From a virus, in IMG/VR virus record IMGVR_UViG_3300034523_000103, positions 1-24,333 of that record: a stretch of 24,333 nucleotides of DNA; one strand, 5' to 3'. The notes beneath the pieces are model-generated. The model was given only the letters and a program-made list of their open reading frames with translations. It searched no databases and was not told the origin of the DNA. Of this stretch, positions 2,022 to 19,020 are shown one piece after another. Both the position numbers and the translations under genes were made by a program. Within the stretch, counting starts at the first letter, position 1. Each line of letters starts with the position of its first letter.

Positions 2022-2498
2022 ATGGCAGTACTACGAAGCGAGGTCAAAGCCTTCATTGTTCAGGCGCTCGCCTGCTTTGATACGCCATCTCAAGTGGTCG
2101 AGTCGGTCAAGAAGGAATTTGGACTCGATCTGAGTCGCCAGCAGTGCGAATCCCACGACCCGACAAAGTTCGCCGGGCGAGCGCTCGGAGTGAAGTGGGC
2201 CGAGTTGTTTCACTCTGCCCGCAAGCGGTTTCGTGAAGAGACGGAAGCCATCCCGATCGCTAATCGTGCGTATCGATTGCGCGCGCTGGGCCGCATGGCC
2301 GAGAAAGCCGAGAGCATGCGCAACCTGGCGCTGACCGCTCAGTTGTACGAGCAGGCCGCCAAAGAGGTGGGCGATGTCTACGTGAATCGCCGCCTCGAAC
2401 CTGAGAAACCTCTGGGCTCCCAAGCGGACCAGCAGCACGCCGTTGCTGAGTACACCCTGGAGCCTGATGAGAATGTCCCCGCTACCCCGTACCTTTGA
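2022..2498 (+). CDS. terS: terminase small subunit (DUF2280 type)
   Basis: This 158-aa protein begins MAVLRSEVKAF and contains CFDTPSQV and SRQQCESHDPTK. These are the hallmarks of the DUF2280 phage family, taken as small terminase subunits that recognise the packaging site and load the large subunit. ATG 2022 is preferred, with GGATG at 2009-2013. A TTG at 2004 would add six residues but has poor spacing. The N-terminal half is a compact helical DNA-binding domain. The central helices (about 65-120) are rich in Ala, Arg and Glu and suit oligomer formation. The gene overlaps the start of the large subunit by about 32 bases, so the two are co-translated. No packaging site could be recognised by eye. 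Confidence 0.8.
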   Translation: MAVLRSEVKAFIVQALACFDTPSQVVESVKKEFGLDLSRQQCESHDPTKFAGRALGVKWAELFHSARKRFREETEAIPIANRAYRLRALGRMAEKAESMRNLALTAQLYEQAAKEVGDVYVNRRLEPEKPLGSQADQQHAVAEYTLEPDENVPATPYL

Positions 2499-4704
2499 CC
2501 CGCCGGTGAAGCTGACGCCCAAGCAGGCGAACATTTACTGCTGGGGTTTCCAGCCCGAAGCCCGCTTCCGCGATGCGGTGTGTGGTCGCCGGTTTGGCAA
2601 GACGTTCCTGGGCAAAGCCGAGATGCGCCGTGCCGCTCGCCTTGCTGCGGAGTGGGGCGTGAGCGTTGAGGACGAGATCTGGTATGGCGCGCCTACGTTC
2701 AAACAGGCCAAGCGCGTGTTCTGGCGTCGCCTGAAGCAAGCTATCCCCGAAGCATGGCGTGCGCACCGCCCGAACGAGACGGAATGCTCGATCACCCTCA
2801 AGTCCGGCCACGTCATGCGCGTGGTGGGGCTCGACAACTACGACAACCTGCGCGGCTCCGGCCTGTTCTTCGTCCTAGTGGATGAATGGGCGGACTGCCC
2901 GTGGGAAGCCTGGGAAGAAGTCCTGCGGCCGATGCTCTCTACCTGCCAGTACTCGATACCGGGCGTTGGCATGCGCAAGGGCGGACACGCGCTGCGTATC
3001 GGCACGCCGAAAGGCTTCAACCATTGCTACGACACGTTCCTCGATGGCCGGCCAGGCCATGAACCCGATCACAAGAGCTGGCTGTACACCTCGCTCGACG
3101 GCGGCAACGTCCCGGCTGAAGAGCTGGAAGCTGCCCGCCGTAAGATGGACCCTCGGACATTCCGGCAGGAATACGAGGCCAGCTTCGAGAACTACCAGGG
3201 CGTCGTCTACTACACGTTCAATCGTGAGGCTAACCGGACCAGCGAGGCTATCAAGCGCGGCGAGGCACTGCACATCGGCATGGACTTCAACGTCATGAAG
3301 ATGGCGGCGGTGGTCTATGTCGTGCGTGACGGACTGCCCCTGGCGCTGGATGAGTTCCACTCTGTGCGCGACACGCCTGACATGATCGAGAAAATCCAGG
3401 CGCGGTTTGCGGGGCACAACATCGCCGTTTACCCGGATGCCAGCGGCCAGAACACCAGCAGCAAAAATGCCAGTGAGTCCGACCTGTCATTGCTCACGAA
3501 AGCCGGCTTCACCGTGGTGGTCGATTCCACAAACCCAAGCGTGAAAGACCGAGTGAACTCGGTAAACGCCATGTTCCTGAACACCTATGGCGAGCGGCGC
3601 ATGAAGGTCAACATCGACCAATGCCCGCAACTTACCCAGTGTCTTGAGCGGCAGACCTACACCGACAAGGGCGAGCCTGACAAGAAGGGAGGCTATGACC
3701 ATATGTGCTTCTCAGGAAGGACACTGGTTCAAACCCGCAAAGGCTTGGTTCGATTTGATGAGCTTCCCGAGTCCGGGGAGGTCATTGGGCCCATGGGTGA
3801 ATTCGTTCCTTATCACTCTGCAGGTAAAACCGGCAATAAAGTAACCGTCAGGGTAGAGCTTGCTGGTGGTTACGTAATAGAATGCACTCCTGATCATAGA
3901 TTCTTGACGGGAGATGGTTCATGGGTAATGGCGAAAGAGTTGTTGGGCCGAGAGTGCGTGTCCTTAGTGATACCGCGCAGGAGTTCGAGGGCGTCATCTA
4001 TTACTTGTGCGGCAACTACTTTGCCGACTCAAGCTCAGACACGGAGCGCCGATTACACCGAGCCGTTTGGCTCGCCTACCATCTGCACATCCCGGAAGGC
4101 TTCCATGTCCATCATGAAGATGAGGACCGAAGCCATAACCAGATTGAAAATCTTCTCTGCCTTCCTGGTGGAGAGCATATTCGGCATCACAATCTGGAGC
4201 GAAGAGAAGAGCTTGCTGAGATCGGGCGAAAATATCAGCCTCGAACAAAGGAGTGGCATGCATCAGAGGCTGGAAGGCAGTGGCACAAGCAGCACTACCA
4301 AAACACTGCTGAAAAGCTTCACGCGCGCCACGAAGCGCCTTGCTCGTGCTGCGGGAAGGTGTTTCTCGCCAGCGAAAGTGTCAAAAACTCAGATGTTCGC
4401 TATTGCTCAAAATCCTGTAAGGCGCATGCGCGCAGACAGAGCGGCGTTGACGATGTTGCTCGAGTCTGTGGAAAGTGCGGAGCAGGGTTCATGGCAAACA
4501 AGTACAGCGCTCGTAAAAGCTGTGACACATGCTTTCCCGCTCGAAGAACAAAGCGTTTATTGCCTGACAGTGCCTGATTACGGGTGCTTCAAGTTAAGCG
4601 AAGAGTCCCCCATCGTCTCGAACTGCGACGCCGCTGGCTACTTCATTGCCAAGCGCTACCCGATCAAGGTCATCAACACATCCACCACATCCCTGAGAAT
4701 CTGA
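2467..4704 (+). CDS. terL: terminase large subunit precursor interrupted by an intein
   Basis: This is the ATP-driven DNA-packaging motor and nuclease. Counting from ATG 2467 (GGAG at 2459-2462; ATG 2473 is an alternative), Walker A is CGRRFGKT at 39-46. Walker B is FVLVDE at 135-140, and the coupling motif GTPKG is at 179-183. The RNase H-like nuclease has GMDFN (Asp273), YPDASG (Asp324), and a third acidic motif split by the intein: GGYDHM | CDAAGY. The precursor has 745 residues. Removing residues 414-719 gives a 439-aa enzyme, the usual size for the family, so splicing is needed for activity. The last 26 residues lie after the intein. The stop is two bases before the portal ATG. A nested HNH gene occupies another frame of the intein. 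Confidence 0.9.
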   Translation: MRMSPLPRTFDPPVKLTPKQANIYCWGFQPEARFRDAVCGRRFGKTFLGKAEMRRAARLAAEWGVSVEDEIWYGAPTFKQAKRVFWRRLKQAIPEAWRAHRPNETECSITLKSGHVMRVVGLDNYDNLRGSGLFFVLVDEWADCPWEAWEEVLRPMLSTCQYSIPGVGMRKGGHALRIGTPKGFNHCYDTFLDGRPGHEPDHKSWLYTSLDGGNVPAEELEAARRKMDPRTFRQEYEASFENYQGVVYYTFNREANRTSEAIKRGEALHIGMDFNVMKMAAVVYVVRDGLPLALDEFHSVRDTPDMIEKIQARFAGHNIAVYPDASGQNTSSKNASESDLSLLTKAGFTVVVDSTNPSVKDRVNSVNAMFLNTYGERRMKVNIDQCPQLTQCLERQTYTDKGEPDKKGGYDHMCFSGRTLVQTRKGLVRFDELPESGEVIGPMGEFVPYHSAGKTGNKVTVRVELAGGYVIECTPDHRFLTGDGSWVMAKELLGRECVSLVIPRRSSRASSITCAATTLPTQAQTRSADYTEPFGSPTICTSRKASMSIMKMRTEAITRLKIFSAFLVESIFGITIWSEEKSLLRSGENISLEQRSGMHQRLEGSGTSSTTKTLLKSFTRATKRLARAAGRCFSPAKVSKTQMFAIAQNPVRRMRADRAALTMLLESVESAEQGSWQTSTALVKAVTHAFPLEEQSVYCLTVPDYGCFKLSEESPIVSNCDAAGYFIAKRYPIKVINTSTTSLRI
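3706..4623 (+). other. intein within the terminase large subunit (306 aa)
   Basis: It begins at Cys1 (TGC 3706-3708) with CFSGRTLVQTRKG, a typical block A. Block B is IECTPDHRFLT, with Thr61 and His64. The C-terminal blocks are SVYCLTVPDYGCFKL (block F, from about residue 284) and SPIVSN | C. The terminal Asn306 is at 4621-4623 and the +1 nucleophile is Cys (4624-4626). The penultimate residue is Ser, where most inteins have His. The region between blocks B and F (residues about 92-283) shows no endonuclease motif in this frame. It instead looks like a translation of the HNH gene read out of frame. Placement at the nuclease motif of TerL fits the rule that inteins sit in conserved active sites. 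Confidence 0.9.
3921..4577 (+). CDS. HNH homing endonuclease nested out of frame inside the intein
   Basis: A 218-aa ORF starts at ATG 3921, with GGGAG at 3909-3913 and a seven-base spacer. It lies in a different frame from terL. Residues 45-90 form an HNH nuclease: HRAVWLAYH, then HVHHEDEDRSHNQIENL (His64/His65, Asn73, Asn77) and the distal His86, 89 and 90. The C-terminal part has two cysteine clusters that suit zinc binding: CSCCGKVF with YCSKSC (141-166), and VCGKCGAGF with SCDTC (183-204). It ends inside block F of the intein. It should cut an intein-less terL allele at the insertion point and so drive homing. Base composition is more A/T-rich than in flanking terL. Its own ribosome site and start argue for separate translation rather than a sequencing frameshift. 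Confidence 0.85.
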   Translation: MGNGERVVGPRVRVLSDTAQEFEGVIYYLCGNYFADSSSDTERRLHRAVWLAYHLHIPEGFHVHHEDEDRSHNQIENLLCLPGGEHIRHHNLERREELAEIGRKYQPRTKEWHASEAGRQWHKQHYQNTAEKLHARHEAPCSCCGKVFLASESVKNSDVRYCSKSCKAHARRQSGVDDVARVCGKCGAGFMANKYSARKSCDTCFPARRTKRLLPDSA

Positions 4705-14927: not shown

Positions 14928-14996
14928 AAAAACCCCAGCGCTGGCCGGCGCTGAGGTTTTGGGTAACGAATCCAACTATTCAGGAAAGAAACGTCA
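14926..14996 (-). ncRNA. candidate antisense RNA, sar-like (module A)
   Basis: On the minus strand, ATGACA (complement of 15025-15030), 16 bases and TATGAT (complement of 15003-15008) preceded by TGC form an extended -10 promoter inside the ant start. Transcription would begin near 14996 and cover the ant Shine-Dalgarno. It would end at a hairpin with 9 bp (14933-14941 with 14948-14956, a G-U in this orientation but a C-A mismatch in the other) followed by seven U. The RNA would be about 70 nt, close to P22 sar RNA, which blocks ant translation. Confidence 0.6.
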
Positions 14997-15838
14997 TGAC
15001 GAATCATAGCACAGCCGCATCCAATGTCATCCACTTCGCCTTTGGGGCGAAGAGTGTTCGTATTCAGGAGATCGAAGGGGCGCCCTGGTTCTGCGTAACG
15101 GATGTCTGCAGCATCCTCGGGTATTCGAATAGTCGTGATGCCATGTCCAAGCATTGCCGCGAGAAGGGTGTAGCGAAACGCGACACCCTTACCTCCAAAG
15201 GCAAGCAGGCATTGACGTTCATTGACGAAGGCAACCTCTACCGCCTGATCATCAAGAGCCGCAAGGAAGAAGCGCAGCGTTTCGAGTCTTGGGTTTGTGA
15301 TGAGGTGCTCCCTGCAATCCGCAAGACGGGCCGCTACGAAGATCAGGGCAAGATGGCCGAGCTGATGGATCAGCTGAGCCTGAGCCAGTTCAATACGATC
15401 AAGGGAGTGATTCGCGACAAGATCAAGGCTGCACCTGCAGAGAAGCGCCAAGGCTTGCAGCTAGTCATGCATAACCGCCTGCATACCCGGTTCAACGTGC
15501 CGCGTACCGAGTTGATCCCGGCCAGTCAGTTCGAAGCCGCGTGCAATTTCGTTGCGGCTTATGCGCTTGAGGGTGAGTACCTGCCGAAGCAGGAGGGCAT
15601 ACAGATCGCCGGGAGCCCAAGGTCGCGCTACTTGGTCAGTTTCGACCACAAGGGCGACCAACGAGTCCAAATGATCCCTGCTGATGCTTGCGTAATGACG
15701 CATCGGGAATTGATAGCGGCAATTGTTACACCGGGCGAGCTTCCTGTATCGACTGACGAGATGTTTGAGTTCGTTGTGGCTGGCATGTCCAACTTGAAGG
15801 CTCGCTCCGATTATCAGGCTCGCAAGGTGGCAGCATGA
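14996..15838 (+). CDS. BRO-N family antirepressor (module A)
   Basis: This 280-aa protein starts at ATG 14996, with AGGAAAG upstream. Residues about 16-115 are a BRO-N domain: APWFCVTDVCSILGYSNSRD, then IDEGNLYRLIIKSRKEEAQRF and WVCDEVLPAIRKTGRY. This domain is found in phage antirepressors and binds DNA or repressors. The C-terminal part contains RFNVPRTELIPA and ACNFVAAY-LEGE (165-194), shared with the second BRO protein in the window, so the two are paralogs. It should inactivate a prophage repressor and promote lytic growth. The stop overlaps the Rha gene in ATGA. A candidate antisense RNA covers its ribosome site. Confidence 0.82.
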   Translation: MTNHSTAASNVIHFAFGAKSVRIQEIEGAPWFCVTDVCSILGYSNSRDAMSKHCREKGVAKRDTLTSKGKQALTFIDEGNLYRLIIKSRKEEAQRFESWVCDEVLPAIRKTGRYEDQGKMAELMDQLSLSQFNTIKGVIRDKIKAAPAEKRQGLQLVMHNRLHTRFNVPRTELIPASQFEAACNFVAAYALEGEYLPKQEGIQIAGSPRSRYLVSFDHKGDQRVQMIPADACVMTHRELIAAIVTPGELPVSTDEMFEFVVAGMSNLKARSDYQARKVAA

Positions 15839-17902: not shown

Positions 17903-18076
17903 ATGAAAGATGCACACAAGGTATCCCCATACAGCCTGCGGATTTCTGAGCAGCTGAAGGCCAGGGCGAGGGATGAGGCGCACGCGAACCGGCGCAGCCT
18001 TAATGCGGAGCTTGAGCTGTTAATTGAGGAGGGTTTCAAGTGGCGGGAAGCGCAGAAGAATCAGGCAGTAGCCTAA
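17903..18076 (+). CDS. Arc-like ribbon-helix-helix repressor (module B)
   Basis: A 57-aa protein from ATG 17903, with AAGGAG at 17891-17896. An in-frame ATG at 17864 falls inside the operator and promoter region and is unlikely. VSPYSLRISEQLKARARDEA and NRRSLNAELELLIEEGF give the RHH strand and two helices. The SPY-x-x-R start is shared with the divergent Mnt-like protein, as P22 Arc and Mnt share ancestry. It should repress the rightward promoter and so damp antirepressor synthesis. Its start is exactly 239 bp before the following ant start, the same as in module A. Confidence 0.82.
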   Translation: MKDAHKVSPYSLRISEQLKARARDEAHANRRSLNAELELLIEEGFKWREAQKNQAVA

Positions 18077-18077
18077 A

Positions 18078-18139
18078 ACGAAGAAACCCCGGCTTGCAGG
18101 CCAGGGCTTCGGATGTGAAAACTTTCGACGGAAATCACG
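18078..18139 (-). ncRNA. candidate antisense RNA, sar-like (module B)
   Basis: On the minus strand ATGACA (complement of 18168-18173), 16 bases and TATTAT (complement of 18146-18151) with an upstream TGC form an extended -10 promoter in the first codons of ant. The transcript would start near 18139 and mask the ant ribosome site. It would end at CCCTGGC/GCCGGGG (18100-18106 with 18087-18093), followed by TTTCTTCGTTTT. The hairpin has a G-U in this orientation but a C-A mismatch in the other, so it is built for leftward transcription. Confidence 0.6.
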
Positions 18140-18141
18140 AC

Positions 18142-19020
18142 ATGAATAATAGCACAGCGGTATCGAATGTCATTCCTTTCAGCTTCGGCAGGCAGCAGGT
18201 GCGCACGCTGATGATTGATGATCAGCCATGGTTCGCCGCCCAAGATGTACTCGACGCCCTTGAGTATGCCGATACATACAAGCCTTCTCGTGCTGTATCG
18301 CACGTCCCATCTCAATGGAAGGGTGTGCAACGGTTGCACACCCTTGGCGGCACACAGCAGATCATGATGATTTCGGAGCAAGGGCTGTACTTCGTGCTTG
18401 GCCGCTCCGATAAGCCCAAGGCCCTACCGTTTCAAATGTGGCTGGCAGGGGACGTGCTTCCATCTATTCGCAAGACTGGTGGCTACACGGACCATCAAGG
18501 CTCAATGGGCGATTTGGTCGGCTCCGTAATCGGTACCAGTGGCGAGCACGTCCTGGATCGGGTCATCGAGCAGAAGGCCTCGCCAGTACCTCATTCGCTC
18601 CAGCGCAGTTTCAAGCACACCATGAAGAGCCGGCTTCGCTCGCGCTTTAACGTTCCGCGCACTGCCTTGATTCCGGCGGAGTACCTGAACGACGCCTGCA
18701 ACTTCGTGGCGGCTTACTCCTTGGAAGGCGAGTGGATTGGCCGCGCCAGCTTGAACACCCACGAATTGACCGACAAGGAACTGTACGATGTTGGCTTCCT
18801 CATTCACCACTTCTTGGCGGTGAAAGGAATTTATGAGCGATGGGGTGTTGGTAGCGCGTTAAGAATGTTGGGTTCGCCAATCCCGGCAGAAATTACCGAC
18901 CACTTCAGCGATGCGATGATGGCTATAGGTGGGCTAAAAAAGCGCTCGGCCGACATGGATGTTGCGGCAAATCGCCTTGGCCTGCGGAATGGGAAGGCGA
19001 CTCGATCTGCCGCAGCCTAA
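18142..19020 (+). CDS. BRO-N family antirepressor (module B)
   Basis: This 292-aa protein starts at ATG 18142, with GGAAA upstream. The frame is open 34 codons further up, but that overlaps arc-like B and lacks a good start. Residues about 12-115 are a BRO-N domain (DDQPWFAAQDVLDALEYADT, SEQGLYFVLGRSDKPKALPF, WLAGDVLPSIRKTGGY). The middle carries RFNVPRTALIPA and ACNFVAAYSLEGEW (168-198), shared with the module A paralog. The C-terminus differs and ends AANRLGLRNGKATRSAAA. It should neutralise a repressor when the ant promoter is released. Its first codons overlap a candidate antisense promoter, and a terminator follows at 19053-19072. Confidence 0.82.
   Translation: MNNSTAVSNVIPFSFGRQQVRTLMIDDQPWFAAQDVLDALEYADTYKPSRAVSHVPSQWKGVQRLHTLGGTQQIMMISEQGLYFVLGRSDKPKALPFQMWLAGDVLPSIRKTGGYTDHQGSMGDLVGSVIGTSGEHVLDRVIEQKASPVPHSLQRSFKHTMKSRLRSRFNVPRTALIPAEYLNDACNFVAAYSLEGEWIGRASLNTHELTDKELYDVGFLIHHFLAVKGIYERWGVGSALRMLGSPIPAEITDHFSDAMMAIGGLKKRSADMDVAANRLGLRNGKATRSAAA

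Follow-up and report, generated by a model that had tools for sequence, protein, structure and literature searches.

Intein endonucleases are taught as in-frame domains, and inteins usually hold them between splicing blocks B and F. The gene of the terminase large subunit (TerL) studied here contains an intein and an HNH nuclease in two different frames of the same DNA, and the question is whether this double reading is an accident, an error or a design of a mobile element. The gene lies in the window (i.e. the whole 24,333-nt stretch analysed, from the virus record IMGVR_UViG_3300034523_000103); all the features of the gene given below are on the + strand. The ORF at 2443-4704 encodes the terminase large subunit, with a start probably at ATG 2467 (2473 is the other candidate, and picking one is a matter of choice), and a single open frame (2386-4701) runs across terL and the intein. 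The N-extein (2467-3705) includes the ATPase and most of the RNase H-like nuclease domain (Pfam Terminase_6C, 1.1e-10; Terminase_6N, 4e-4), and on this side residues 1-421 are 92% identical to the TerL of Pseudomonas phage phiAH14a. The C-extein (4624-4704) starts with Cys+1. Elsewhere in the window, an ORF upstream of the terminase genes (1333-1989) matches PHROG 513 (annotated transposase), and two ORFs (14996-15838 and 18040-19020) each match anti-repressor Ant families (phrog_245).

Between the exteins, the terL frame encodes an intein of 306 aa (3706-4623), running from Cys1 (CFSGRT, codon 3706-3708) to the terminal Asn306 (codon 4621-4623), with Cys+1 at 4624. It was matched by TIGR01445 (intein_Nterm, above the cut-off) and by Pfam Intein_splicing (2e-7, under its gathering score). 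Block A (CFSGRTLVQTRK; 3706-3741) was recognized from the translation and an alignment of 49 inteins, block B (3877-3906) carries the TxxH motif (T61 P D H64), and the end of block F together with block G (VYCLTV...SPIVSN; 4555-4623) was located by the intein alignment and a C-terminal HMM; C1, T61, H64 and N306 are invariant among the 49 inteins. In the structure model, the splicing pieces (residues 1-88 and 268-306) are confidently predicted (pLDDT 80-98) with a HINT fold, and Foldseek matched them to the DnaE, DnaB and gp41-1 inteins, gp41-1 being the nearest solved intein by sequence. The middle of the model, which corresponds to the HNH gene read out of frame, is poorly predicted (mostly pLDDT 35-70). 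With its Cys1 nucleophile, block B TxxH, C-terminal Asn, Cys+1 and HINT fold, the element has the make-up of a class 1 type intein, as expected from the original prediction of a terL intein with intact splicing blocks. The penultimate residue counts against the intein reading: it is Ser, and inteins usually have His at this place. When the flanks are joined without the intein they read YDHM/CDAAGYFIAKRYPIK (YDHM/CDAAGYF; the slash marks the insertion point), and the uninterrupted TerLs of phiAH14a and Aurca01 show the empty site as HDHM/NDAAGYFIAKRYPIK (HDHM/NDAAGYF) and YDHL/VDAPGYFIAKRYPIK (YDHL/VDAPGYF), respectively. Removal of the intein leaves a complete host TerL, with a C-extein co-linear with these two intein-less proteins.

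No endonuclease domain is found in the terL frame between blocks B and F, where a canonical endonuclease-containing intein has one. The nuclease is encoded out of frame, by an ORF (3921-4577, ATG start) for an HNH homing endonuclease of 218 aa (Pfam HNH_3, 3.9e-8, above the gathering score; PHROG 15471, 7.4e-36), and the terL phase is +1 relative to it. The ORF contains the HNH_3 core (4050-4169; Pfam stretch 44-83), with H64, H65, N77, H86 and H90 invariant, and two Cys4 zinc clusters (4341-4532; C141/C144/C162/C166 and C183/C186/C201/C204), of which the HNH alignment shows the first to be invariant in relatives and the second at least 90% conserved. The structure model supports this assignment (mean pLDDT 91), and the nearest solved HNH is I-HmuI (PDB 1u3e; profile E 2.4e-4), which is also the top structure match, a weak one (TM 0.26-0.31). 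A Shine-Dalgarno-like GGGAG (3909-3913) lies 7 nt upstream of the ATG, the stop codon falls within the block F region, and over the HNH stretch the terL frame has 0 stops and the third forward frame 12-13. The two-cluster HNH protein, its own ribosome site, start and stop, and the terL frame left open across it are all as the original prediction described them.

The terL frame stayed open in 22% of trials when the HNH gene of the window was shuffled synonymously (P=0.22), so its openness in the window alone is compatible with chance. On that result an HNH gene could have landed recently in a mini-intein, the double open frame being a transient accident. Relatives of the HNH bear on this directly. 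The family was gathered from named phages, IMG/VR and GTDB contigs, with no requirement on layout; in the viral contigs a single-sequence query gave no match, an alignment query did retrieve relatives, and the best 80 of 181 viral relatives were retained. Intein halves were searched with HMMs built from the nested loci, on which the layout labels rest. Overprinted loci were first picked by zero stops; in 75 of them the HMMs later recovered both halves, and the phase was assigned separately. Many loci are metagenomic contigs, and the set is partly redundant.

Among the 133 HNH loci (with the best 80 of 181 viral relatives), 75 (the window counted once) have the HNH overprinted in a continuous intein in the same phase as the window, and 8 have it overprinted in the other phase (L032, L033, L035, L050, L053, L062, L068, L080). 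The HNH lies between split-intein halves on separate ORFs in 20 loci, 28 have no detectable intein (a class that includes contigs ending near the HNH), and 2 are partial. An in-frame HNH, checked with the intein HMMs, occurs in 0 of the 133 loci (best 80 of 181 viral relatives), which extends to the relatives the claim that the nuclease is absent from the terL frame. Window-layout loci include Tetrasphaera phage TJE1, Acinetobacter phage Highwayman, Rhodobacteraceae phage LS06-2018-MD07, the gut sequence MT838676, and two cultured bacteria, Rhizobium lusitanum P1-7 (L134) and Piscinibacter sakaiensis 201-F6 (L138). Two archaeal MAGs (L111, L137) also have the overprinted layout, and the GC content of overprinted loci ranges from 29 to 68%. 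TerL split inteins with the HNH between their halves are found in Lactobacillus phage CL2 (L008) and Vibrio phage 1.245.O (L158), the HNH of the latter being unannotated; other split loci are L020, L021, L022, L025, L040, L046-L048, L072, L100, L102, L104, L105, L108, L110, L113, L121, L129 and L133. In Brochothrix phage BL3 (L017), just the C-terminal zinc-cluster part of the HNH is left (2211-2417) between TerL intein halves, and this locus is a decayed element.

The survey also bears on a sequencing or assembly frameshift that masks an ordinary in-frame HNH domain, for which the sole support is that inteins usually carry their endonuclease in frame. We give this reading a negligible probability: the same relative phase recurs in 75 loci, including the isolated phages TJE1, Highwayman and LS06-2018-MD07, an in-frame copy occurs in none of the 133 loci (best 80 of 181 viral relatives), and a second, compensating error would be needed for block F/G to regain the frame. 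The original prediction had proposed a search for alternate-frame HNH ORFs in other TerL inteins, and had called an overprinted nuclease unusual. The search yielded at least 82 related virus or bacterial sequences beyond the window (at least 83 overprinted loci with it); the second statement did not survive, as the layout is present in 83 of 133 HNH loci (best 80 of 181 viral relatives) and was mentioned for brucellaphages in a passage of a 2015 paper (PMC4422536).

Across the 75 overprinted loci, the terL phase is free of stops (0 in 15,115 codons), versus 346 in 9,304 codons of the split or intein-less relatives, the zero being by construction, as a continuous frame defines the class. A shift in codon use between the same two groups is not by construction: ATA makes up 12% of Ile codons in the overprinted loci versus 39%, Leu codons ending in A or G 46% versus 66%, and Met amounts to 1.0 versus 1.7 per 100. 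With the codon make-up of the 75 window-phase loci as given, synonymous shuffling gave 2.3 expected stops versus 0 observed; the product of the chance values over the set of relatives is about 1e-114 (log10 about -114), which is no strict probability because the loci are related. In the 8 other-phase loci, whose codon use is relaxed in the window phase, 0 stops were observed versus 10.0 expected, and zero was reached in none of 500 shuffles of any locus. Chance opening is thus refuted for the class by the shuffle across relatives. The accident reading retains the P=0.22 of the window, but the same phase is open in 75 loci across the whole HNH tree and at 29-68% GC, the codon usage differs from that of split and free relatives, and the other phase is open in 8 loci against 10 expected stops; we regard it as very improbable. 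Selection against stops in the terL frame, which the original prediction had assumed, is accordingly borne out by the relatives and not by the window itself (P=0.22).

For pairs of overprinted loci with 45-55% HNH identity, the identity of the terL-frame linker is 25.5%, and the same frame, unread, shows 23.0% in intein-less and 23.5% in split relatives at that HNH identity. Conservation in overprinted pairs is seen in the HNH frame and not in the linker of the terL frame. A conserved linker protein as second product was ruled out, since the linker is about as conserved as the unread frame in relatives without the overlap. The claim that one DNA encodes both an intein linker and a separate nuclease therefore stands for the overlap itself but not for the linker as a conserved product. 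As the linker is not conserved, selection acts just on the absence of stops, and the linker appears to be a passenger that needs only to be stop-free. Overprinting has the look of a mobile-element design that is widespread and under selection, and not of an isolated case.

The overprinted HNH starts at a median of 266 nt into the intein, just after block B, and 64 of 74 overprinted copies start with ATG. Shine-Dalgarno matches of at least 4 bases were found at 72% of the overprinted HNH starts versus 23% of internal-codon controls, an enrichment somewhat flattered by choosing the best starts with the same Shine-Dalgarno score (the control had an equal number of candidates). Judging from these start sites, we infer that the nuclease may be made without splicing, from its own start. 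Programmed frameshifting from the terL frame, by which the HNH would be made as a TerL-intein-HNH fusion, fits the HNH frame being open also for a few codons 5' of the ATG (3900-3920) and the HNH beginning soon after block B; the frequency of ATG (64 of 74 overprinted copies) and of Shine-Dalgarno-like sites (72%) argues against it and makes it highly unlikely.

In most cases the insertion site is the terminase nuclease motif DH/CxDA. N-exteins of the loci belong to the Terminase_6, Terminase_3 and T7-type families, and in two loci (L122, L139) the overprinted element occupies another place in TerL, around position 369 of PHROG 2. In one further locus (L097), the C-extein of the host gene matched no PHROG family. 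The HNHs of L045 and L083 are 62% identical and their TerLs 26% identical, as would be expected for lateral spread, and among the 223 pairs whose HNHs are at least 40% identical, 133 have exteins that can hardly be aligned. In the tree (a quick one, with many weak branches), the overprinted state is spread over the whole HNH family, the loci of the other phase form essentially a single clade, split and free copies are interspersed, and the state changes between overprinted and other at least 16 times. These changes led us to reject the idea that the nested state arose once and was then simply inherited.

Position next to terminases could also mean that the HNH is a packaging helper, placed in terL for co-expression, and not a homing nuclease. 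All named free-standing HNH relatives adjoin terminase genes, and HNH proteins near terminases are reported to act in packaging (Kala 2014, cited in a passage of PMC4422536). A mobile element nevertheless fits the sporadic occurrence at a single site, the alleles with an empty site, the transfer between TerLs of low similarity and the nesting within an intein, and the solved protein closest to the HNH is the homing enzyme I-HmuI, so that we consider a packaging role unlikely.

The anatomy, the empty-site alleles, the recurrence and the avoidance of stops, together with the codon bias, the start-site signal and the spread between dissimilar TerLs, make it very probable that the element is a mobile intein of TerL, with an overprinted homing nuclease made from an internal start. 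The steps that we infer, i.e. splicing, translation of the nuclease and cleavage of the empty site, would be as follows. The intein would sit at the TerL nuclease motif (DH/CxDA), with the HNH zinc-ribbon nuclease in the alternative frame between blocks B and F. Ribosomes translating terL would produce a TerL-intein precursor with a long unstructured linker, from which the HINT domain would excise itself to leave intact TerL, and initiation at the internal ATG with its GGAG would give the nuclease as a free protein. Its cleavage target would be the insertion site in terL alleles that lack the intein, and repair of the cut would copy in both the intein and the nuclease gene.

Here, the intein linker is overprinted by a nuclease that is a protein of its own. 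At least 83 loci have this layout, which occurs in two phases, among phage and prophage TerLs from bacteria and in two archaeal MAGs. The layout couples a selfish gene to an essential one, and it gives a direct case for the cost of overlapping genes, as one nuclease family occurs with and without the overlap. Because the frame is overprinted, annotation pipelines call one long terminase and miss the nuclease. One protein family holds contiguous, overprinted, split and free-standing arrangements, which makes the origin of split inteins testable. A broader proposal, which is possible but which we would lean against, is that overprinted HNH inteins are a large natural class with two phases, interconverting with split inteins and free-standing nuclease genes; entanglement with the essential gene might guard the nuclease against loss by frameshift, and a single stop codon ending the entanglement might be a route to split inteins.

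Among known systems, fractured-gene split inteins with free-standing endonucleases were reportedly described by Dassa and colleagues in 2009. The likeness, in the outline of Dassa et al. (2009), is an endonuclease gene between intein halves, and among solved inteins gp41-1 comes nearest to the window intein in sequence; in those systems stop codons interrupt the gene and splicing of the halves occurs in trans, whereas the terL frame of the window runs through as one continuous frame and not as separate ORFs. That split layout does occur in 20 of 133 relatives of this HNH (best 80 of 181 viral relatives). Splicing and an active endonuclease were demonstrated for several of the TerL inteins of mycobacteriophages (Kelley et al. 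2016, PMC5050341); the mycobacteriophage TerL inteins are all in the ATPase domain, whereas the window intein is at the nuclease motif with its endonuclease out of frame. I-HmuI is the HNH homing endonuclease of a phage group I intron, and differs in being intron-borne and without two zinc clusters in the arrangement of the window HNH. Out-of-frame HNHs are also known in phage methylases, as the ShiLan domain and the Pacc40 insertion (Arsenault, Gosselin, Gogarten 2025, PMC11855218). Like the ShiLan element, the window has an out-of-frame HNH with zinc fingers and a stop-free host frame; the ShiLan element, however, has no splicing domain (the window has one), is thought to stay in the methylase, has no Shine-Dalgarno site and is in another host gene (PMC11855218). 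For brucellaphages, one passing sentence in Farlow et al. (2015, PMC4422536) describes an out-of-frame HNH in the large terminase gene, a TerL intein; that passage gives no splicing blocks, selection or relatives, and the element is likened to ours by its description. No account of the scale of overprinting, of the second phase or of the split-intein link was found in the literature consulted, and a preprint on non-canonical actinobacteriophage inteins (Gosselin et al. 2025) may overlap. As far as the cited passages go, mobile inteins and the out-of-frame HNH of brucellaphages are known already, and the scale of the overprint, its second phase and its link to split inteins are what appears to be new here.
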